A DNA stretch of 19,168 nt from Gemmatimonadota bacterium (GTDB lineage Bacteria > GCA-2686955): positions 1-19,168 of the forward strand of contig NYZA01000232.1 in the NCBI GenBank assembly GCA_002686955.1. The letters run 5' to 3'. The notes beneath the pieces were generated by a model. It was given only the letters and a program-made list of their open reading frames with translations. It searched no databases and was not told the origin of the DNA. Made by a program: the position numbers and the translations under genes. Each line of letters starts with the position of its first letter. The stretch's first letter is position 1. Shown here one piece after another: positions 2,291 to 18,056 of this stretch.

Positions 2291-2428
2291 ATGGACGTTG
2301 ACTGTTTGGGCGGCCGCGAGGTAAGTTCAGAGGCTTCTCGAATAGGGGTTCGCTCACGAAGACGACCGAAGACCTCTTTGCCCGGACCCTCGATGCCCCG
2401 CCTCAAGCTGCCGAGGAAACCAGTATGA
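2291..2428 (+). CDS. Possible 45-residue ORF coupled to HMG-CoA synthase
   Basis: An ATG at 2291 sits five bases after a GGAGG ribosome-binding site. It opens a 45-codon frame whose stop overlaps the next start as ATGA at 2425-2428. The peptide is basic in its second half (SRRRPKTSLP, then PRLKLPRKPV) and matches no family I recognise. The good ribosome-binding site and the overlapping stop/start suggest a real small gene, or a leader that couples translation to the downstream synthase. It may instead be chance, since codon content is unremarkable and the synthase has its own GAGG eight bases upstream. Confidence 0.28.
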   Translation: MDVDCLGGREVSSEASRIGVRSRRRPKTSLPGPSMPRLKLPRKPV

Positions 2429-3477
2429 ATGTAGGCATTGTGGGTTACGGCGCCTACCTTCCGAAACACCGGATCAAGGTCGAGGAGATCGCCCGGGTCT
2501 GGGGTGCGGACGCGCCGAGCTACAAGAAAGGACTGGGCCTGCGGGAGAAGTCGGTTCCCGCTCTAGATCAAGACGTGATCACCATGTCGGTCGAGGCGGC
2601 ACGAAACGCGCTCGCTCGCTCAGGTGGAGTCGATCCCAGAGAGATCGGTGCTCTCTACATCGGTTCGGAGTCACATCCCTACGCGGTCAAGCCATCGGGC
2701 ACGATCGTCAGCGAAGCGATCGGCGCCACCCCCGCGATCCATGTGGCCGATTTCGAGTTCGCATGCAAGGCTGGATCGGAGGGGATGTTCGTCGCACACG
2801 GCCTTGTCAAGGCGGGCCTGATCAAATACGGCATCGGGATAGGAGCCGACACTTCGCAAGGTGCACCAGGAGATGCCCTGGAGTATTCCGCGGCGGCGGG
2901 AGCGGCGGCTTTTCTGTTCGGCTCAGACAACCTGCTCGCGCGGATCGAGCACACCTTTTCCTATACTAGTGACACTCCCGATTTCTGGCGGCGAGAGTAT
3001 ATGCACTATCCCCAGCATGCTGGGCGCTATACGGGAGAGCCGGCCTACTTCAAGCACACGATAGGCGCAACCGAAGGCGTTTTGGAGCGCTCGGGTATGA
3101 AGCCAAGCGACTTTCAATTCGCTGTTTTCCATCAGCCGAACGGCAAGTTCCCGATGCGCGTGGGCAAAATGCTCGGCTTCAGCCATGAGCAGATGGAGGC
3201 TGGGTGGCTGTCTCCCACCTTGGGCAACACGTACTCTGGAGCTTCGCCCATTGGGCTCAGCGCCATACTCGACGTGGCCAAGCCGGGCGACAAGATACTC
3301 ATGTGCTCGTACGGATCCGGTTCCGGAAGCGATTCGTTCGTCTTCACCGTGACCGAGCGGATTACCGAGGTCCAGGGCTTGGCCCCCAAGACCCGCTACA
3401 TGCTTGAGCATGAGCCGATCTACCTCGCCTACGGCGAGTACGCCAAGTTCCGCAGGAAGATCCGCAAGGCCGAGTAG
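2425..3477 (+). CDS. Archaeal-type hydroxymethylglutaryl-CoA synthase family protein
   Basis: The 350-residue protein has the length and layout of archaeal HMG-CoA synthases, shorter than the bacterial MvaS and eukaryotic forms. It belongs to the thiolase superfamily, in which acetoacetyl-CoA and acetyl-CoA are condensed to HMG-CoA. The start reads MNVGIVGYGAYLPKHRI. The expected catalytic triad is visible: Glu near residue 82 (IGSESHPYAVKP), the acyl-carrying Cys at 114 (DFEFACKAGSEG) and His at 236 (VFHQPNGKFP). A C-terminal glycine-rich SYGSGSGSDSF segment is also typical. The gene is followed by a thiolase and a DUF35 protein in the order used by archaeal mevalonate operons, so the three probably act as one complex. 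No other mevalonate gene lies in the window. A related 3-ketoacyl-CoA synthase role cannot be excluded. Confidence 0.88.
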   Translation: MNVGIVGYGAYLPKHRIKVEEIARVWGADAPSYKKGLGLREKSVPALDQDVITMSVEAARNALARSGGVDPREIGALYIGSESHPYAVKPSGTIVSEAIGATPAIHVADFEFACKAGSEGMFVAHGLVKAGLIKYGIGIGADTSQGAPGDALEYSAAAGAAAFLFGSDNLLARIEHTFSYTSDTPDFWRREYMHYPQHAGRYTGEPAYFKHTIGATEGVLERSGMKPSDFQFAVFHQPNGKFPMRVGKMLGFSHEQMEAGWLSPTLGNTYSGASPIGLSAILDVAKPGDKILMCSYGSGSGSDSFVFTVTERITEVQGLAPKTRYMLEHEPIYLAYGEYAKFRRKIRKAE

Positions 3478-3496
3478 GTCGCGCTAGGAGTTTGCT

Positions 3497-4651
3497 ATGA
3501 GAGACGTCGCGATTGTCGGCGTAGGCATCAAGAAGTGGGGCGAGCTCTGGGAGCAGTCGTTGCGCAACATATTCGTCGATTCCGCTCTCGCGGCCATCGA
3601 CGATGCGGGCGCGAATCGCATCGATTCGATGTATGTCGGCTGCATGTCCGGTGGGCTCTTCGTCGGGCAGGAACATTTGGGCGCGCTCTTGGCGGATCAT
3701 CTGGGTCAAGGCCCCATTCCCGGTACCCGCGTCGAGTCGGCCTGTGCTTCGGGAGGAGTCGCGCTACGAAGCGGGCTGCTCGAAGTGGCCAGCGGCGCGA
3801 GTGATATCGTGCTGGTCGGAGGCGTCGAGAAGATGACCGACGTGAGCGGCGACGAAGCGACGTACGCGTTGGCGACCGCGTCGGACCAGGAATGGGAGGC
3901 TTTCAACGGCGTCACATTTCCCGGCCTCTACGCCATGATGGCGGTGGCGCACATGCACAAATACGGAACCACGCGGGAGCAGATGGCGGCGGTCGCGGTC
4001 AAGAACCACTTCAACGGCTCCTTGAACCCGTTGGCGCAGTATCCGCATCCAACCACGGTCGAGGCGGTTCTGGGATCGGTCCTGGTGGCCGACCCATTGC
4101 ACATCCTCGACTGCTCTCCGATCACCGATGGAGCCGCCGCCCTGATCCTCTGCCCGGCCGACAAGGCCGCGGAGTTCAGCGGAACCCCGGTTCGGATCAT
4201 CGGCTCAGGGTTCTCTACCGACACCATCGCTCTGCATTCGCGAGCGGATCTGAGCTCGCTCGACGCCGTGACGCGCGCCGCGCAGAAGGCATACGAAATG
4301 GCGGGCAAGAGCCCCGCCGACATCGACCTTTGCGAGGTGCACGACTGCTTCACTATCGCCGAAATCATGGCCACCGAGGCCCTGGGATTGGTAGAGATAG
4401 GGCAGGGTGGCAAGGCTGCCGAGGCAGGCGAGACGGCGATCGGTGGGCGGATTCCGATCAACACGAGTGGCGGCCTGAAGTCGAAGGGCCATCCCGTTGG
4501 GGCCACGGGCGTTGCCCAGGCCATCGAGGCCGTCGAACAGCTCCGCGGCGGCGCCGGCGAGCGCCAAGTCGAGGACGCGCGAGTCGCGATGGTCCAGAAT
4601 ATGGGCGGCACCGGGGCCAGCGCTGTCGTCCACATCATGGAGGCGATGTAG
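3497..4651 (+). CDS. Thiolase (acetyl-CoA acetyltransferase, SCP2/archaeal type)
   Basis: This 384-residue thiolase would form or cleave acetoacetyl-CoA. The nucleophilic Cys is C83 in [15 protein letters not shown]. The second domain has the [11 protein letters not shown] segment and the active-site His near residue 332 in [15 protein letters not shown]. The usual C-terminal CxG loop is replaced by QNMGGTGAS, as in the SCP2-like and archaeal subgroup, which normally pairs with a DUF35 protein. An AGGAG ribosome-binding site lies eight bases before the ATG. The gene begins 19 bases after the HMG-CoA synthase and its TAG touches the ATG of the DUF35 gene, so the three genes almost certainly share a transcript. 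The natural reading is that it supplies acetoacetyl-CoA to the synthase. Confidence 0.92.
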
Positions 4652-5082: not shown

Positions 5083-6681
5083 ATGCACCGAGACATCGAC
5101 TTCCACGCCGTCCCTCTGAGTGATCGTACGACCGCTAATCTAATGGTGACGATCTACGAGGAGCCCGAGGTCAACCGCGAACATCTCGCGAAGCACCTCG
5201 GTAAGGGAACGGCCGACGCGGTCGTCGAGCTGATGACGAAACATCGAGTCAGCTGGCGTTACAAGGAGTTCAACCTTCTCCCCGGCGCCTCGGACGTGCA
5301 TGGCTTCGAGTGGATTCTCCTCTTGGGGCTCGGCAAGAAATCGAAGATCCGCCACCCGCATCGGCTGCACGATCGTCTGCGGTCGGTGATCGCCATCTCC
5401 GCGAGGCAGTTCCGCCGAAAGGGCCTGGGGGCGTTCGCGGTCGATGACCTCAGCGATTTCGGCGTTGCCCCCGAGATTGCGGGGCGCTTGGTCGTCGAGG
5501 GTGCGATGCTCGGCACCTACCGCTTTCATCGCTACAAGACCAAGAGCGACGAGGCAGCTCCCGACGATGTGCCGATCTCCGACGTCTATCTTCTGACCGA
5601 CGGCCACCAAGGCGCTCTGGCGGACTCGATCGAGAGCGGGACGGCAAGGGCGACGAGCACCTGTTTGGCGCGGGATCTGGTCAATACCCCGGCGAAGGAC
5701 CTGACACCTTTGAGCTTCGCCAACGAGGCGAAGAAGGTGGCCGATTCCGAACCGGAGCTTGAATTCGAGCTCCTGGGCGCCAACGATATGGAGAGAGAGG
5801 GGATGGGGCTGCACCTCGGCGTAGGGCAGGGATCGCAAGAGCCTCCCTGCGTAGCCATTGTGCATTACGCGCCCCGTGGCGAATCAAGGGGTTGGAATAT
5901 GGCCCTTGTCGGAAAAGGGGTCACCTTCGATTCGGGCGGCTACAACATCAAGCCGAGCTCAGGAATGACGCGGATGTACGGAGACATGGCCGGGGCCGCG
6001 GCGGTGCTCGGCGCGATGCGATCGATCGCCCAGCAGAGGCTAGACCTCAATGTCGTCGGGGTCATGCCGCTCTCCGAGAATCTGGTGAGCGGCAAGGCGT
6101 ACAAGCCCGGGGACGTGCTCCGGTCCCACCATGGACGAACTGTCGAGATCACCAATACCGACGCCGAGGGGCGGCTACTGCTGGCCGACTCTCTTAGCTA
6201 CACCTGCCGGCGCTATCAGCCTGAGTTCTTGGTCGACATCGCCACGCTGACCGGCGCGATCGTCATCGCGTTGGGCCATTTCGTATCGGGGCTCTTCACG
6301 CACGCGAATTCGACGGACGACGACGACGCCTTCGCCGGCAAGCTCTTCGCTTCTGGTCGCGAGGCGGGCGAATGGCTCTGGCGCATGCCGATCGACGACG
6401 ACTACAAGGTGCAGATCGCCAGCGATGTGGCCGATCTGGCGAACTGCAGCACCGACCGAGCGACCGGCGCGGGGGCGATCACCGCCGCGGTTTTTCTGAA
6501 GGAGTTCGTGGACTTCGACGTCGTCAAAGCGTGGGCCCACATCGACATCGCGAGCTCAGCACTGATGGAACGCGCCTTGATCTACAACAAGAGCCCCTAC
6601 CAGCCGAGAGAAGGTGCCACCGGTGTGGGAGTGCGCCTCCTCTCCTCACTCGCCGCACACCTCGAAGATCCTCCGAAATAG
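5083..6681 (+). CDS. pepA: Leucyl aminopeptidase (M17 family)
   Basis: This cytosolic two-metal aminopeptidase removes N-terminal residues from peptides and usually works as a hexamer. The protein has 532 residues. The poorly conserved N-terminal domain runs to about residue 180 and is followed by the catalytic domain. Metal and catalytic residues of the M17 family are visible: K278 and D283 (LVGKGVTFDSGGYNIKP), catalytic K290, D301 (YGDMAGAAAV), then D360, E362 and catalytic R364 in the signature NTDAEGRLLLAD. The ATG at 5083 is the first in frame and gives a normal length; its ribosome-binding site is weak. It lies 41 bases after the DUF35 gene and may be co-transcribed, without an obvious pathway link. 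The reading frame shows no defect. Confidence 0.95.
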   Translation: MHRDIDFHAVPLSDRTTANLMVTIYEEPEVNREHLAKHLGKGTADAVVELMTKHRVSWRYKEFNLLPGASDVHGFEWILLLGLGKKSKIRHPHRLHDRLRSVIAISARQFRRKGLGAFAVDDLSDFGVAPEIAGRLVVEGAMLGTYRFHRYKTKSDEAAPDDVPISDVYLLTDGHQGALADSIESGTARATSTCLARDLVNTPAKDLTPLSFANEAKKVADSEPELEFELLGANDMEREGMGLHLGVGQGSQEPPCVAIVHYAPRGESRGWNMALVGKGVTFDSGGYNIKPSSGMTRMYGDMAGAAAVLGAMRSIAQQRLDLNVVGVMPLSENLVSGKAYKPGDVLRSHHGRTVEITNTDAEGRLLLADSLSYTCRRYQPEFLVDIATLTGAIVIALGHFVSGLFTHANSTDDDDAFAGKLFASGREAGEWLWRMPIDDDYKVQIASDVADLANCSTDRATGAGAITAAVFLKEFVDFDVVKAWAHIDIASSALMERALIYNKSPYQPREGATGVGVRLLSSLAAHLEDPPK

Positions 6682-7932: not shown

Positions 7933-8198
7933 ATGAGATGGACGTACACCCTGGCGGTTTTCGCGTTGACCTGTGGTGGCGCGCGAGCGCAGGAGGAGCA
8001 CCATGTGGACCCCATTGGCCGCCACACCTTTCCGCCGGAGCTCGTGATACAGCATCAGCGCGCCATCGCGCTCACCGAGGCGCAGCGTGAGACCATCAAA
8101 GGCGAGCTTCAACAGACGCAGAGCGCATTCACCGATCTTCAGTGGGACCTCGAGCGAGAGATGGAGATCTTCGTGTCACTCCTGGCCCAGGAGAAGGG
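7933..8198 (+). pseudogene. Spy/CpxP-like periplasmic protein, 5' part, cut by element
   Basis: The ATG at 7933 follows a GAGGAG ribosome-binding site. It opens a signal peptide (MRWTYTLAVFALTCGGARA, cleavage expected before QEEH). The mature part has the LTxxQ-type motif of Spy/CpxP/periplasmic metal-sensor proteins (IALTEAQRETIKGEL) and a helical stretch ending LEREMEIFVSLLAQEK. At about 8197 the sequence becomes the 3' end of the minus-strand recombinase gene, and the frame runs on as nonsense to a TAG at 8338-8340. Family members normally continue with another 60 or so helical residues, and this half was not found at the far side of the element. The product was probably a periplasmic chaperone or metal-stress protein and is now truncated. 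Confidence 0.7.
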
Positions 8199-10292
8199 CT
8201 ACGCTTCACACTGCACCTCTTTCATGAGCTTCGACGCGACCTCGGGGAAGCGCCGTCGTTGCTTGAGTTTTTTGCCTTGGTTCTTGATCGGCGGATCGTC
8301 GCCGGGGTGCTCGTACAGGCACTCGCTTTTGTCGTTGTAGGCGTGTGCGCGGAGCAGGCCGCCCTTCCGCCAGATCTTCACCGTACGGGTCGAGACATCG
8401 AGGAAGTTGGCGATTTCGTCGAGCGTCAGCATGCCGACGCCGCGCAGCCGGTCGTATCGCGTTTTGAGTTCGTAGTCACGCCGGAGCCGCTTCACCCTGA
8501 TCCGGTGGAAGGGCAGGCCCTCGCCGGAGAGGCGACCGCGTTCGTTGAGGATGTTAGCGATCTGGCTCTCCGTGTAGTTGTCGAGTAGGGCGTCGATCTC
8601 GGCGATGACATCCTCCGAGGTCTGGCGGAGCTGCCATGCGGGCAGGGCGAGGGGTAGCGTCAGTGTTTTGGTGGTGCCCCCGCGGAAGCGTACGCCGGCG
8701 GCGATTTCGTCATCTTTAGTCAGCGTTATGTCCTCGATGAGCAAGCGCACCATGCGCTTTCGTTCGCGTTGCGGCGTCTTCGGATCGTTCCACAGTCGCG
8801 GGAAGTCGGTGGCCAACGACAGGATCTCCTTGCGTCGCTCGTCACTGAGTTCTTGGTGGTCCTCGGCTCGCCGGTGCTCGAGCTCCTCCTGGGCGTCGTG
8901 CAGCGCGCGCAGCTTGTGGTTCCACTCCGCCTCGAGGACGTCGACCACGAGGCGATTGCCCGGGTCTGCCTCCATGAAACGGCGCCGAGCGATGTCGGCC
9001 TCGTGGCGGGCGCGTTCGACCCGCTGGCGGCGCAGCGCGTCCGCGTCGTCCGCGCGTGCCTCGAGCTCCGCCTGGACTTGCAGGGCGACTTCGAGGGTCA
9101 CCGGCGTGACCATCTCGACGAGCAACTCACCGATGGCGTCGTCAATACCGGAGCCCGGGATGGTTTGGCACTTCGCCGACGCGGTCTCGGTGGCCTCGCT
9201 CTGGCAGACGTACTCGGGCCACTGTCTGCCCTTGCGCGTGTGGTAGCGCACCGTCATTCGCCGACCACAGACGCCGCAGATGGCCAGGCCCTGCAGTAGC
9301 GCCGGCCCCTGCCGCGGCGGGCTCTTGCGACGTTCGGCGCCGTGGGCCTGGGCGTTGTCGCGCAATCGCGCGAGGTTGGCTTCGAACTGCTCCCAGGAGA
9401 TGTAGCCAGGGTGCGCGTCGGGAAACAGCGCCGTCCATTCGTCGCGCGGGAGCACCTCGACCTCGATTCTCTCGCCTGGCCGCTTGTGCGTGCGCGTCCG
9501 GCCGAAGCAGAAAGCGCCAGCGTAGCGCGGATTGTGCAGCACGCGCAGTACGCGCCAGTGACGCAGTGACTCCCAGAGCAGCTCCCCCTTATGTGGTCCG
9601 CTGCGCGGGCGGCGAGGGAAGCGCAGGTCCAGCTCGCGGAAGTGTCTCACCGTGGCCGACGCCGAGCCTGTGCGCTCGAAGGTCTCGAATAGATGCGCGA
9701 TGCTCCCGCGGACCTGGCGGTCGGGGTCGAGCATAACGTTGTCCGCCGCATCGTAGACCAAGCCGACCGGCAACGGTGTCTTGAGCGCGCCCCGGCGTGC
9801 CCGGTTGAGAATGCCACCACGTAGCCGCGCGCGCAGCACGTGCAATTCGGCGTCGGACATGGTGCCTTTGAGCCCCAGCAGGAGCCGATCGTTGAAGTCT
9901 CCCGGCGAGTAGATACCGTCCTCATCGAGGATCAGCGTGTCGGTCAACGCGCAGATCTCGAGGAGCCGATGCCAGTCGGTGGAGTTGCGGGCCAGGCGCG
10001 ATACCTCGAGCCCGAGCACGATCCCGACGCGGCCCACACCGACCTCGCCCACAAGCTTCTGGAAGCCCTCGCGGTCAGCGCTCGACGCACCGGACTTGCC
10101 CAGGTCGGTGTCGATCACGTTGACACGCTCGATGGGCCAGCCGAGCGCCACCGCCCGCTCGCGCAGCGCGTACTGCCGCCGGGTGCTCTCGGTATTCTCG
10201 AAGACCTGCCGCACCGTGGACTGGCGTACGTAGAGGTACGCGTCGCGTCGCAGGTGGCTGGCGGTCACCTTCTGGTGGATCGGCTGTGTCAT
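8199..10292 (-). CDS. Large serine recombinase
   Basis: The 697-residue protein cuts and rejoins DNA through a serine-linked intermediate. The resolvase-type catalytic domain covers roughly residues 17-165: nucleophile S25 (YLYVRQSTVRQ), the LGLEVSRLARN segment near 94-103 and the YSPGDFNDRLLLGLKGTMS helix region. A recombinase domain follows (about 175-320, with LHNPRYAGAFCFGR). A zinc ribbon has C339, C342, C363 and C375. A long charged coiled-coil region comes next, then a C-terminal HTH (LTLDEIANFLDVSTRTVKIW). An AGGAGG ribosome-binding site precedes the ATG, which overlaps the preceding ORF's stop as ATGA. The frame is intact, so the element may still be active. It is expected to act on short att sites rather than inverted repeats. 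Confidence 0.94.
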   Translation of the reverse strand: MTQPIHQKVTASHLRRDAYLYVRQSTVRQVFENTESTRRQYALRERAVALGWPIERVNVIDTDLGKSGASSADREGFQKLVGEVGVGRVGIVLGLEVSRLARNSTDWHRLLEICALTDTLILDEDGIYSPGDFNDRLLLGLKGTMSDAELHVLRARLRGGILNRARRGALKTPLPVGLVYDAADNVMLDPDRQVRGSIAHLFETFERTGSASATVRHFRELDLRFPRRPRSGPHKGELLWESLRHWRVLRVLHNPRYAGAFCFGRTRTHKRPGERIEVEVLPRDEWTALFPDAHPGYISWEQFEANLARLRDNAQAHGAERRKSPPRQGPALLQGLAICGVCGRRMTVRYHTRKGRQWPEYVCQSEATETASAKCQTIPGSGIDDAIGELLVEMVTPVTLEVALQVQAELEARADDADALRRQRVERARHEADIARRRFMEADPGNRLVVDVLEAEWNHKLRALHDAQEELEHRRAEDHQELSDERRKEILSLATDFPRLWNDPKTPQRERKRMVRLLIEDITLTKDDEIAAGVRFRGGTTKTLTLPLALPAWQLRQTSEDVIAEIDALLDNYTESQIANILNERGRLSGEGLPFHRIRVKRLRRDYELKTRYDRLRGVGMLTLDEIANFLDVSTRTVKIWRKGGLLRAHAYNDKSECLYEHPGDDPPIKNQGKKLKQRRRFPEVASKLMKEVQCEA

Positions 10293-10603
10293 GCACGCAC
10301 CTCCTGGATGTGACTCAAGGTCATGGCCGCGAGGACGCGGACCACCTCCGCGCTCGCCTCATCCGGCAACGGCGAGAGGTGCTGGCGCTCCGTTTGCATT
10401 GGCGGCGCGGGTGGCGACGGCAGCCTGGACCACGCCTCCATCCAGGCCGCGACGCCCTGGCGCAGCAGCACGACCAGTCCCTCGCGGCTCGCCGGAGCGC
10501 GACGCTGCACGGCGTGGGTGCGCAATGCCTCGTAGCGCTCGGCATGGTCGGGCGTGCCGTGCCCGCACGCCGAGCCCTGCGTCGGGCCGCCTGTCAGCGC
10601 CGT
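10289..10603 (-). CDS. Middle ORF of the element, possible frameshift product
   Basis: This frame of 104 codons ends in a TGA that overlaps the recombinase start (ATGA). The protein-like part reads HAERYEALRTHAVQ, then REGLVVLLRQGVAAWMEAW and EVVRVLAAMTLSHIQEVRA, a helical protein that occurs at this place in related elements. No ATG starts it: the frame runs open back through the HTH gene, and in-frame starts are a CTG beside the HTH stop or an internal GTG. It lies in the -1 frame relative to the HTH gene, entered exactly at an A8 run, so it may be made as a fusion with the HTH protein. I do not know its function; a recombination accessory role is the simplest inference. Confidence 0.6.
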   Translation of the reverse strand, partial: TALTGGPTQGSACGHGTPDHAERYEALRTHAVQRRAPASREGLVVLLRQGVAAWMEAWSRLPSPPAPPMQTERQHLSPLPDEASAEVVRVLAAMTLSHIQEVRA

Positions 10604-11058
10604 TTTTTTTCCTGCCGTGCCAGTGCCCGCTCGATGCTGCGCGGATGGACAGAAACGCCGAAGCGATCCTCGACCAGCCTCACGAGATCCTGTGCGTCGA
10701 TCTCCGGCTGCTCGGCGAGCGCCACTTCCAGCGCCGCCACCACCTTTTCGGACAGCTTGTGCGCTCGCCGGGGACCGGGCTTCTTGGGCAACAGCGCCGG
10801 CAGGCCGCCCTTCTCGTACGCCGCCTGCGCCTGATAGTACGTCGGCCGCGACAAGCCGAAGCCCGTCGCCGCGTGGCTGATCGCCTGCCCGTCTACGCGA
10901 ACTCGGCGCAGCATCTCGTACTTGACCTGCACCAGGTCGCGCGGGTCGAGGAACTCGCTCGCGGCGAACGCCTCGTCGGTGACCTTGTTGGGGTGCGGGT
11001 GCAGGCAGCCCTGCTCGCGGAGGGTGTCGGCCTTGGGGTCGCTCTTGGGTCGGGGCAT
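10594..11058 (-). CDS. Helix-turn-helix protein of the recombinase element
   Basis: The 154-residue basic protein has a transposase-OrfA-like layout. The N-terminal part is MPRPKSDPKADTLREQG. A first HTH lies around residues 50-80 (VKYEMLRRVRVDGQAIS, then AATGFGLSRPTYYQAQAAY). A proline-rich LPALLPKKPGPRR link leads to a second helical part (VRLVEDRFGVSVHPRSIERAL), like the paired HTH of IS630/IS481-type transposases. No DDE catalytic domain is present. It probably binds element DNA and either regulates the recombinase or helps arrange the recombination complex. A strong promoter lies about 30 bases upstream. The gene ends ARQEKKRR over an A8 run that could redirect ribosomes into the next ORF. 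Confidence 0.82.
   Translation of the reverse strand: MPRPKSDPKADTLREQGCLHPHPNKVTDEAFAASEFLDPRDLVQVKYEMLRRVRVDGQAISHAATGFGLSRPTYYQAQAAYEKGGLPALLPKKPGPRRAHKLSEKVVAALEVALAEQPEIDAQDLVRLVEDRFGVSVHPRSIERALARQEKKRR
10603..10611 (-). promoter_or_regulatory. Candidate -1 ribosomal frameshift site (A AAA AAA)
   Basis: At the end of the HTH gene the zero-frame codons are GAA AAA AAA CGG, a classical A_AAA_AAA slippery heptamer. A -1 slip gives ACG as the next codon and enters the middle ORF, bypassing the HTH stop at 10594-10596. A perfect 7-bp hairpin (GGCGTGC / GCACGCC) lies about 31 bases downstream, further away than is usual for a stimulator. A fusion would have about 255 residues. A sequencing slip in the homopolymer is an alternative. 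Confidence 0.45.
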
Positions 11059-11087
11059 GGGCAGCGCTCCAGAATAGCGTAAGGCTC

Positions 11088-11115
11088 ATTATGCCGTGCA
11101 GAAACGCGATGTCAA
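11088..11115 (-). promoter_or_regulatory. Sigma70-type promoter for the HTH-recombinase operon
   Basis: On the minus strand a perfect TTGACA -35 (11110-11115) and a CATAAT -10 (11088-11093) are separated by 16 bases, about 30 bases upstream of the HTH start. It is the best promoter match in the window and is poised to transcribe HTH, middle ORF and recombinase. Confidence 0.65.
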
Positions 11116-11204
11116 GCTGCGAATGGCGAGACTCGACGGTTTGCAGCCGTGATAACGGGCAACTGTCTATGTGTGCATCGCCAAACAACAAAGCAACAGC
11201 ACCA

Positions 11205-11260
11205 GCGGGCGGCGAAATCTCCTTTACGTTAGCGGCATAATCTCCTTGACAGCCGCCCGC
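11205..11260 (-). repeat. 9-bp inverted repeat enclosing a 23-bp-spaced direct repeat
   Basis: GCGGGCGGC at 11205-11213 is exactly complementary to GCCGCCCGC at 11252-11260. Inside lie two copies of a 16-bp unit, GCGGCGAAATCTCCTT and GCGGCATAATCTCCTT (plus-strand sense), 23 bases apart with 14 of 16 positions matching; the first copy overlaps the left arm. On the minus strand each copy gives AAGGAG; the right-hand one is followed by ATG CCG CTA ACG TAA, a four-codon mini-ORF. The block sits between the DUF5372 and HTH genes, so it could be an operator, a leader or a recombination site of the element. Confidence 0.5.
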
Positions 11261-11298
11261 CCCCACGAACCGCATGAGGAGCGCCCGATATCGGCATC

Positions 11299-11538
11299 TC
11301 ATCGGGACGTTCCGCGAACGAGCTGCGTCAGCTCAACCAGATCGGCCAAGCGGAAGTGCGAGCGCCCGGCCGACACGACGACGGCTGGATCGTCGGACAC
11401 AGCGTTGGTCCAACCCGCCGGAAGGCTGCGCGCCGCGCCGGTCTCGTCCACGTAAACCACCCGGTCCTCGGACCAGAAGTGGCGGTACTGGATCAACTCG
11501 TACTCGCGCCCGTACAGCGGGTGGAACGGGTGGGTCAC
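11299..11538 (-). CDS. DUF5372 family protein
   Basis: The 79-residue product starts at a GTG with VTHPFHPLYGREYELIQYR and continues GEDRVVYVDETG-like strands, a SLPAGWTNAV segment and RSHFRLADLVELTQLV. This is the DUF5372 family, small beta-rich proteins of unknown function carried next to large serine recombinases in this kind of element. The coding frame remains open upstream (RRRFRVTHPF), so a somewhat longer N-terminus with a non-ATG start is possible. It is separated from the HTH gene by about 240 bases holding the repeat block and the HTH promoter, so it may be transcribed separately. The general look (HPF motif, strand-rich) suggests a regulator or recombination accessory factor, which is inference only. 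Confidence 0.75.
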   Translation of the reverse strand: MTHPFHPLYGREYELIQYRHFWSEDRVVYVDETGAARSLPAGWTNAVSDDPAVVVSAGRSHFRLADLVELTQLVRGTSR

Positions 11539-11554
11539 CCGGAAACGTCGGCGC

Positions 11555-11638
11555 TCAGCCTCCGCATCGGGTGCATTCGACAGCGGTGTCCAAGGACTGG
11601 GTCGAGACCAGGATGGTTCTTCGATGGATCGGTCTCAT
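11555..11638 (-). CDS. Possible 27-residue ORF upstream of DUF5372
   Basis: An ATG with a GGGAG seven bases upstream opens 27 codons (MRPIHRRTILVSTQSLD, ending CTRCGG) and stops just before the DUF5372 frame. A weak promoter-like pair, TTGACT at 11707-11712 and TAACGT at 11684-11689 with a 17-base spacer, lies upstream on the same strand. It could be a leader or the first part of the DUF5372 gene displaced by a frameshift. It may equally be chance. No homology is recognised. Confidence 0.2.
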   Translation of the reverse strand: MRPIHRRTILVSTQSLDTAVECTRCGG

Positions 11639-11746
11639 GATGACTCCCGTTGCTAGGAAATGATTCTGCAAGTCAGTATCGAGACGTTAGCGAATCGATT
11701 CCCTTGAGTCAAGAGAGATGCAATCGGCTGGGCAGTGCTGGGCGAG

Positions 11747-17217: not shown

Positions 17218-17844
17218 TTATTCCGCCTCGTTCTTTGCTTGGTCAGTCTTTGTTTGACTGCGCATGAGCGCGTTCAGCAGATCTATGAGGTCACGCCCTC
17301 GGTTAAAACGACGCTTTTCGATGAGTGTCGCTGCGCGCCGAGCCTCTTGCCAATCGGTCGGAGTCATGGTGTTGGAAAGCGCGCTGATGTCTAACGAATC
17401 TTGCGGGCGACTGTCATTGTCACGTGAAAGCAACTTGGCCACCAGCAAATGGGCGGTGGCACATACGGGAACCTCCAGCCCTTCGAGCAGTTCCAGTATT
17501 TCTGCGGCTCGCACCATTTCCGGCTCGATGCCGCTACTCGCAAGAAGGAGATTCACGACGATGCCACTTGCCTCCTCTTTCGGAGGAATGAGTCGCGCGG
17601 TTGCGATGCGACCTGTGTGCGTTTGCTCCACAACGGCGAGGACTCGATACCCAGAACGTTGAAGGGAGAACACGAGACTCTCTGCCGATCGGTCATCCGC
17701 CGCGACCACCGCTACGTCTACATCGCGAGTGAATCGAGGCTCGGCTCTTGCCGACACCGCCAGTCCCCCAACCAGTGCCCACTGCGCCTGATGTTTCCCG
17801 AGATCCTCTTGGAGCCTCCGGAGAATCTCTGCCAAGCGAGTCAT
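17218..17844 (-). CDS. AbiEii-like nucleotidyltransferase
   Basis: The 208-residue protein has the nucleotidyltransferase signature of the MNT/AbiEii kind: WALVGGLAVSARAEPRFTR followed by DVDVAV, with GG at 26-27 and metal-binding D41 and D43. The rest is mixed alpha/beta with a helical C-terminus (EARRAATLIEKRRFNRG, then DLIDLLNALM). Such enzymes modify targets with a nucleotide and often serve as the toxin or antitoxin in paired systems and phage defence. The start is the ATG at 17844, which overlaps the stop of the small upstream gene (ATGA), so the two are translationally coupled. A longer open frame upstream is only a shadow of the partner gene. The target is unknown; toxin activity is inference. 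Confidence 0.82.
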   Translation of the reverse strand: MTRLAEILRRLQEDLGKHQAQWALVGGLAVSARAEPRFTRDVDVAVVAADDRSAESLVFSLQRSGYRVLAVVEQTHTGRIATARLIPPKEEASGIVVNLLLASSGIEPEMVRAAEILELLEGLEVPVCATAHLLVAKLLSRDNDSRPQDSLDISALSNTMTPTDWQEARRAATLIEKRRFNRGRDLIDLLNALMRSQTKTDQAKNEAE

Positions 17845-18056
17845 TGGTTGACCGTCCGAACGCGATACCCCTTTATCCCCTCCAGCGGCAACGTTGCTTC
17901 GCGTAGCCACTTACGAAGAAGACGATCCTCGTCGACCCGACTGATACCCGGCCTTTGGCGACGGATCGTGGCTCTCTTCATCTCCACTCCCGCTTCGAAT
18001 AGATGGAACGCGGTCCGTAGTCGCTCGGCTTCGATTCCTCGGGCTGCTGGTTCCAT
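17841..18056 (-). CDS. Small partner protein of the nucleotidyltransferase
   Basis: The 71-residue product reads MEPAARGIEAERLRTAFHL, then FEAGVEMKRATIRRQRPG and VDEDRLLRKWLREATLP. It is a short helical, charged protein that I recognise only as a companion of AbiEii-like nucleotidyltransferases. Its stop overlaps the downstream ATG. An ATG at 18056 is chosen over an upstream TTG at 18062; neither has a strong ribosome-binding site. It is shorter than the usual AbiEi antitoxin and lacks its winged helix, so the pair would be a non-canonical toxin-antitoxin-like unit. A role as antitoxin or adaptor is inferred from gene order. Confidence 0.65.
   Translation of the reverse strand: MEPAARGIEAERLRTAFHLFEAGVEMKRATIRRQRPGISRVDEDRLLRKWLREATLPLEGIKGYRVRTVNQ

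Follow-up and report, generated by a model that had tools for sequence, protein, structure and literature searches.

Transposons of the Tn4451/TndX type encode a large serine recombinase, pass through a circular intermediate, use a dinucleotide core and carry cargo genes; we know of none that is targeted to transposase motifs. The element described here, in contrast, carries no cargo. Multi-targeting large serine recombinases, which use several target genes, are known (Durrant et al. 2022, PMC10083194) and, as far as the passages found in that paper extend, resemble the present recombinase in their type, TT core, degenerate attB and multiple targets. Neither transposase genes nor catalytic codons figure as targets in those passages; the multi-targeting clade they report mostly has a DUF4368 domain, which the Pfam search did not show in the present recombinase, and the present element differs from the systems they cover in that its accessory genes are a fixed set of three and cargo is absent. 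Elements of the IS607 family are likewise small, with a serine recombinase and without terminal inverted repeats or target duplication; in the excerpts of the two reports concerned (PMC6188088, PMC4058570) the domain order of their transposases is inverted and their target specificity minimal, whereas the recombinase here is ~700 aa long, has its catalytic domain first and uses a specific target. The XisF recombinase of the fdxN element, which acts with XisHI (PMC4853749), is also a large serine recombinase with helper genes, but it is a developmental excisionase with another gene set and target, and no relation was found between its helpers and the accessory proteins described below. Helper-embedded PICIs (Tommasini et al. 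2023, PMC10111431) offer a parallel of another kind, in the portions of that report found: an integrase clade has repeatedly evolved sites in the genes of another mobile element, and the composite can travel as a unit. These are phage satellites in a prophage late gene, whereas the present case is a four-gene element in an IS transposase gene. The literature searched, which did not extend to subscription papers, preprints or ISfinder, contained no report of serine-recombinase elements aimed at transposase active-site codons.

The locus lies in a 19,168-nucleotide stretch of a Gemmatimonadota contig, referred to here as the window, and comprises a 3.4-kb element with four genes, all of whose frames are open, as had been noticed from the sequence alone. 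Its features are the following.

8194–11593, minus strand: whole element, both core copies included, placed by the end profile from multi-copy elements; joining the flanks at one core makes the plus-strand frame open again
8194–8195, no strand assigned: core at the recombinase-side junction, AA on the plus strand and TT on the element strand
8196–8219, minus strand: attP half on the recombinase side, GAGGTGCAGTGTGAAGCGTAGCCC, overlapping the end of the recombinase gene
8199–10292, minus strand: large serine recombinase, 697 aa, with Resolvase, Recombinase and Zn_ribbon_recom (zinc-ribbon) domains and a YVRQS serine motif
10289 to about 10597, minus strand: middle ORF, about 90–100 aa, in the −1 frame relative to the HTH gene
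10603–10610, minus strand: run of eight A (A8) close to where the HTH gene ends, a candidate slippage site for an HTH–middle fusion
10594–11058, minus strand: HTH protein, 154 aa, related to the N-terminal halves of IS630/IS481 transposases
11299–11538, minus strand: DUF5372 protein, 79 aa, Pfam PF17342
11568–11591, minus strand: attP half on the DUF5372 side, GGACACCGCTGTCGAATGCACCCG, from the end profile
11592–11593, no strand assigned: core at the DUF5372-side junction, AA on the plus strand
7933–8193, plus strand: 5′ part of the interrupted ORF, a Spy/Metal_resist-like secreted protein by a weak Pfam match
11594–11663, plus strand: 3′ part of the interrupted ORF, resuming in frame (LLAQE/KDWVETRM...) and carrying GTCGAG, which belongs to the target motif

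The three recombinase domains each score above their Pfam cut-offs, with the catalytic domain at residues 18–169 and the DNA-binding domains C-terminal to it, the reverse of the order that defines IS607 recombinases, in which the DNA-binding domain is N-terminal. The best NCBIfam match is XisF (NF041201), at 87.6 bits against a family cut-off of 375. The DUF5372 protein scores 80 bits against a cut-off of 25 and belongs to that family; its predicted structure (pLDDT 83) combines three strands with two helices. The middle ORF, which matched no database family and is nonetheless conserved across relatives, is predicted at low confidence to be helical. Neither model has a significant structural match, those listed for DUF5372 (E about 0.5) being meaningless, and a literature search for DUF5372 found no paper. 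In the HTH protein, HTH_32 and HTH_28 exceed their Pfam cut-offs, and NCBIfam models of IS630 and IS481 transposases match it at 49 and 41 bits over only their N-terminal ~110 profile positions, bearing out the earlier impression of a transposase DNA-binding half.

The window holds one full copy of the element. Elsewhere in the same genome a second HTH gene copy has decayed (G000:C62:10866–11219, L101; 51% identity, one in-frame TGA, no recombinase nearby). The window also encodes an AbiEii-like nucleotidyltransferase at 17218–17910 (Pfam PF08843, above cut-off) and, judged from translations alone, phosphoglycerate-mutase-like (578–2251), thiolase/HMG-CoA-synthase-like (2425–4651) and leucyl-aminopeptidase-like (5083–6681) proteins.

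Scanning genomes with an alignment of the HTH protein yielded 80 loci in many bacterial phyla, a non-random sample gathered through a single HTH query; no relatives of the HTH protein were found in viral contigs or in phage records. In all 53 elements with both ends located, DUF5372, HTH, middle ORF and recombinase are present in the same order, which is also kept in plasmid-borne relatives. Most of the 53 measure 3.25–3.55 kb, leaving little space for extra genes; the exceptions are L010, which contains a nested IS4, and the 3.9-kb variants L055 and L087. The L010 copy, on P. phymatum pBPHY02, is split by this IS4-family element. Two contigs, L030 (3333 bp) and L038 (3381 bp), each begin and end at the cores of a single element and are either collapsed repeats or circles.

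The ends are set by multi-copy genomes. A 3327-bp segment is 100% identical between two replicons of Caballeronia, with no similarity beyond it; the copies in P. phymatum end alike, and ends of the same kind emerge from Gemmatimonadota and Actinomycetota genomes that carry several copies. The resulting profile is GGTGCAGTATGAAGCGTAGCCC-TT at the right end and TT-GGACNNNGTCGTCNACTGCACCCG at the left end. With the common TT core, the joined ends form a 50-bp attP containing a dyad (GGTGCAGT...ACTGCACC), in which 11.5 of 24 positions are matched, against 6.2 ± 0.3 in shuffled sequences. The locus combines three properties of a serine integrase system: a three-domain recombinase, a shared dinucleotide crossover without target duplication and an internal dyad in attP. 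A search for a circle junction found none. The sequence-only reading had described a mobile module whose recombinase does not need inverted repeats; classical terminal repeats are indeed missing, yet the ends carry an inverted motif, which is what the attP of a serine integrase should show. It had placed the module at 8199–11640, a span that contains the four genes and differs from the element itself; 11594–11640 is target DNA, because the element spans 8194–11593. A by-eye placement of the DUF5372-side end at 11644–11658 was rejected, the end profile giving 11592.

When the flanks are joined at one TT, an open reading frame is restored at target loci, the window included. In Sinorhizobium (S.) meliloti, the joined 342 bp equal the uninterrupted istA of other plasmids at 342 of 342 positions, and in NGR234 the joined flanks match other copies over their full length at up to 97.4%, these being ISNCY transposase genes where annotated. 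As the joined flanks match uninterrupted genes, target duplication is absent and the insert corresponds exactly to the element. For the window's own site no close relative with an unoccupied version turned up, the sole same-family genome giving no match.

Taken across loci, these comparisons show that the four genes are one mobile element with defined ends. The earlier reading had proposed a mobile module whose genes recur together, and neither outcome named there as refuting it, genes that do not move together or ends that fail to bracket this set, appeared. That the genes are simply neighbours in the genome, or that a DDE-type IS has taken up a recombinase as cargo, would fit the likeness of the HTH protein to part of a transposase. 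The probability of this is close to nil, given that the shared ends bracket just these four genes, that an empty site differs by exactly the element, and that Pfam and NCBIfam detect no rve/DDE catalytic domain in the element, which places it outside the DDE families IS630 and IS481.

At the 56 left junctions, the core AA, read on the strand opposite the element's genes, supplies the first two bases of a codon for Asn (34 junctions) or Lys (22). In 54 of them the fifth codon, at +4, specifies Glu, which gives the motif (N/K)-x-x-x-E. The two junctions without Glu are L017, which has Lys in an otherwise fitting motif, and L061, a member of the IS91 group described below. An Asp precedes the targeted Glu in D-35-E (14 targets), D-34-E (4) or D-45-E (9) spacing, as in the catalytic pair of IS3-type and IS21-type enzymes. 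Break-points in the family profiles coincide across unrelated loci: 312–314/369 in IS3, 226–229/284 in IS481, 225–227/294 in IS21, 330/387 in IS66 and 235/236 of 368 in ISNCY. Further interrupted genes are ISL3, IS256 and IS1634-like, and where flanks are short (for example L012, L023, L068 and L076) the target was identified from the motif alone. In most cases the targeted Glu is the catalytic Glu of DDE transposases (IS21, IS3/IS481, IS66, ISNCY, ISL3). This target had not figured in the sequence-only reading. The relatives enter genes of other mobile elements almost always, and so look like transposon parasites.

Five sites lie outside recognized transposases: the window's, in the Spy-like ORF, and L022, L033, L054 and L057. 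Together with the existence of multi-targeting large serine recombinases with TT cores (PMC10083194, in the passages found), they would suit a loose specificity for a TT core in GC-rich DNA, the bias towards transposases then arising because these genes are dispensable and other insertions are purged. Purging, however, predicts insertions scattered along a gene, and nearly all fall at one codon in unrelated families. In addition, a 44-bp position matrix, derived from the tested sites themselves apart from a leave-one-out step, put the true site in first place for 39 of 43 targets, out of as many as 4718 positions. The first-ranked sites include non-transposase genes: that of the window, the GGDEF gene at L057 and the unknown gene at L054. 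The window site, AAGGACTGGGTCGAG, is outscored by 4 of 38,250 window positions, the DNA motif being retained in the Spy-like ORF. Loose specificity with purging is therefore very unlikely. Since the motif also predicts non-transposase sites, what is read is DNA sequence and not gene identity; the preferred sequence is one that transposase active sites happen to encode.

In the recombinase tree, target families switch frequently inside the clade that targets Glu, and other target types form clades of their own. IS91-type targets belong to a single clade of 11 recombinases (support 98), in which the orientation of insertion is opposite and the site is W-A-x-L-L-x-R-x/F, with a Y2_Tnp domain in the one interrupted gene tested; Y1-type transposase targets belong to two recombinases in one clade (support 100). 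More distant recombinases, at L102, L103, L104 and L106, show 33–38% identity and lack HTH and DUF5372 genes; they too lie in IS3-like or IS66 transposase genes, at other conserved motifs. L102 and L106 split IS3-type genes at Y/N-x-x-RPHS, and L104 splits an IS66 transposase. An ORF of ~65 aa precedes the recombinase in two of these four. A 45% relative on a Bradyrhizobium septentrionale plasmid (L105), of which only the right junction is seen, apparently lies inside a group II intron reverse transcriptase.

These relatives bear on the earlier suggestion of the HTH protein as a targeting factor, which by itself or as a fusion with the middle ORF would guide the recombinase to transposase genes. 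The protein does resemble transposase DNA-binding domains and is always present in the clade, although the loci were collected through it. Target type tracks the recombinase tree, but the two proteins are co-inherited and the tree cannot separate them. What counts against the suggestion, and makes it unlikely, is that the 35% relatives without HTH and DUF5372 (L102, L106) split transposase genes at other conserved motifs, and that one DNA motif predicts the site. Because HTH-less relatives still split transposase genes, the tropism for mobile-element genes most likely belongs to the recombinase clade as such. On this comparison the HTH protein is dispensable for such tropism in general and may have a putative role in the choice of the Glu site within this clade.

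The accessory proteins most likely serve excision, directionality or regulation. Large serine recombinases require a directionality factor for excision. The chances are about even that one of the three accessory products (HTH protein, DUF5372, middle ORF) is such a factor, enabling excision as helper genes do for XisF, a role compatible with the preferred reading of the element given below. All four genes are retained in every complete element, and XisF with XisHI (PMC4853749) provides a helper precedent, but sequence and fold searches found no likeness between the accessory proteins and a known directionality factor.

Among 78 distinct elements, 49 have seven to nine consecutive A at the 3′ end of the HTH gene. 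In 48 of these 49 the frame of the middle ORF stays open across the run, and in only 1 of the 78 is it the HTH frame. Many elements, the window's included, lack an ATG, GTG or TTG start for the middle ORF; in the window a CTG overlaps the HTH stop. The recurrence of A runs in GC-rich genomes, followed by a middle ORF that is open in another frame, suggests slippage, probably programmed, that would yield an HTH–middle fusion; where a start exists, translational coupling through an ATGA or GTGA overlap is an alternative.

Evidence for movement as a passenger comes from S. meliloti AK21, in which a 5.9-kb IS21 with the element in its istA is present in two replicons (L006 3846–9758, L009 3846–9710), flanked by target duplications of CATGAGCA (8 bp) and CATAACG (7 bp). 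Since the IS moved in the manner of IS21 despite its split istA, another IS21 copy probably acted in trans, and the interrupted IS21 was probably mobilized with the element aboard. Two insertions of the element at the same codon of two pre-existing IS copies are a less simple alternative.

We put the probability at roughly nine in ten that this is a self-contained insertion element with a large serine recombinase that prefers the DNA encoding the catalytic Glu of transposases. In the mechanism we propose, the recombinase would excise the element as a circle, in which the two ends meet to make attP (GAGGTGCAGT...CCTTGG...ACTGCACC-like). Comparison of the loci shows integration in a degenerate GC-rich attB, with crossover at the TT/AA core and no target duplication, and shows that the preferred attB is the DNA for the conserved (N/K)-x-x-x-E around the DDE catalytic Glu. 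As attB encodes an active-site motif, transposase genes are split, most often in the DDE active site; the sister clades use motifs that are conserved in transposases of the IS91 or Y1 type. The wide spread of the element is probably due to a target that is both conserved and multi-copy, and to carriage when host IS copies act in trans, of which there is one case. The window copy is a complete element at a non-transposase site fitting the same motif. It is reasonably probable that these elements are hyperparasites of transposons, which home into active-site codons, disable the transposases and propagate through their own recombinase as well as aboard the disabled IS when it is moved in trans, with sister clades specialized on other targets.

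With an attP of 50 bp and an attB that is GC-rich and can be defined, this serine integrase would be a candidate for tool development. A gene set without a function (DUF5372, an orphan HTH protein, a middle ORF and a recombinase) now has a defined element, ends and target. Its recombinase clade prefers to land on DNA that codes for an enzyme active site common to several transposase families, a logic like that of inteins and homing elements directed at other mobile DNA, and IS copies inactivated by such insertions would be predicted in many phyla.
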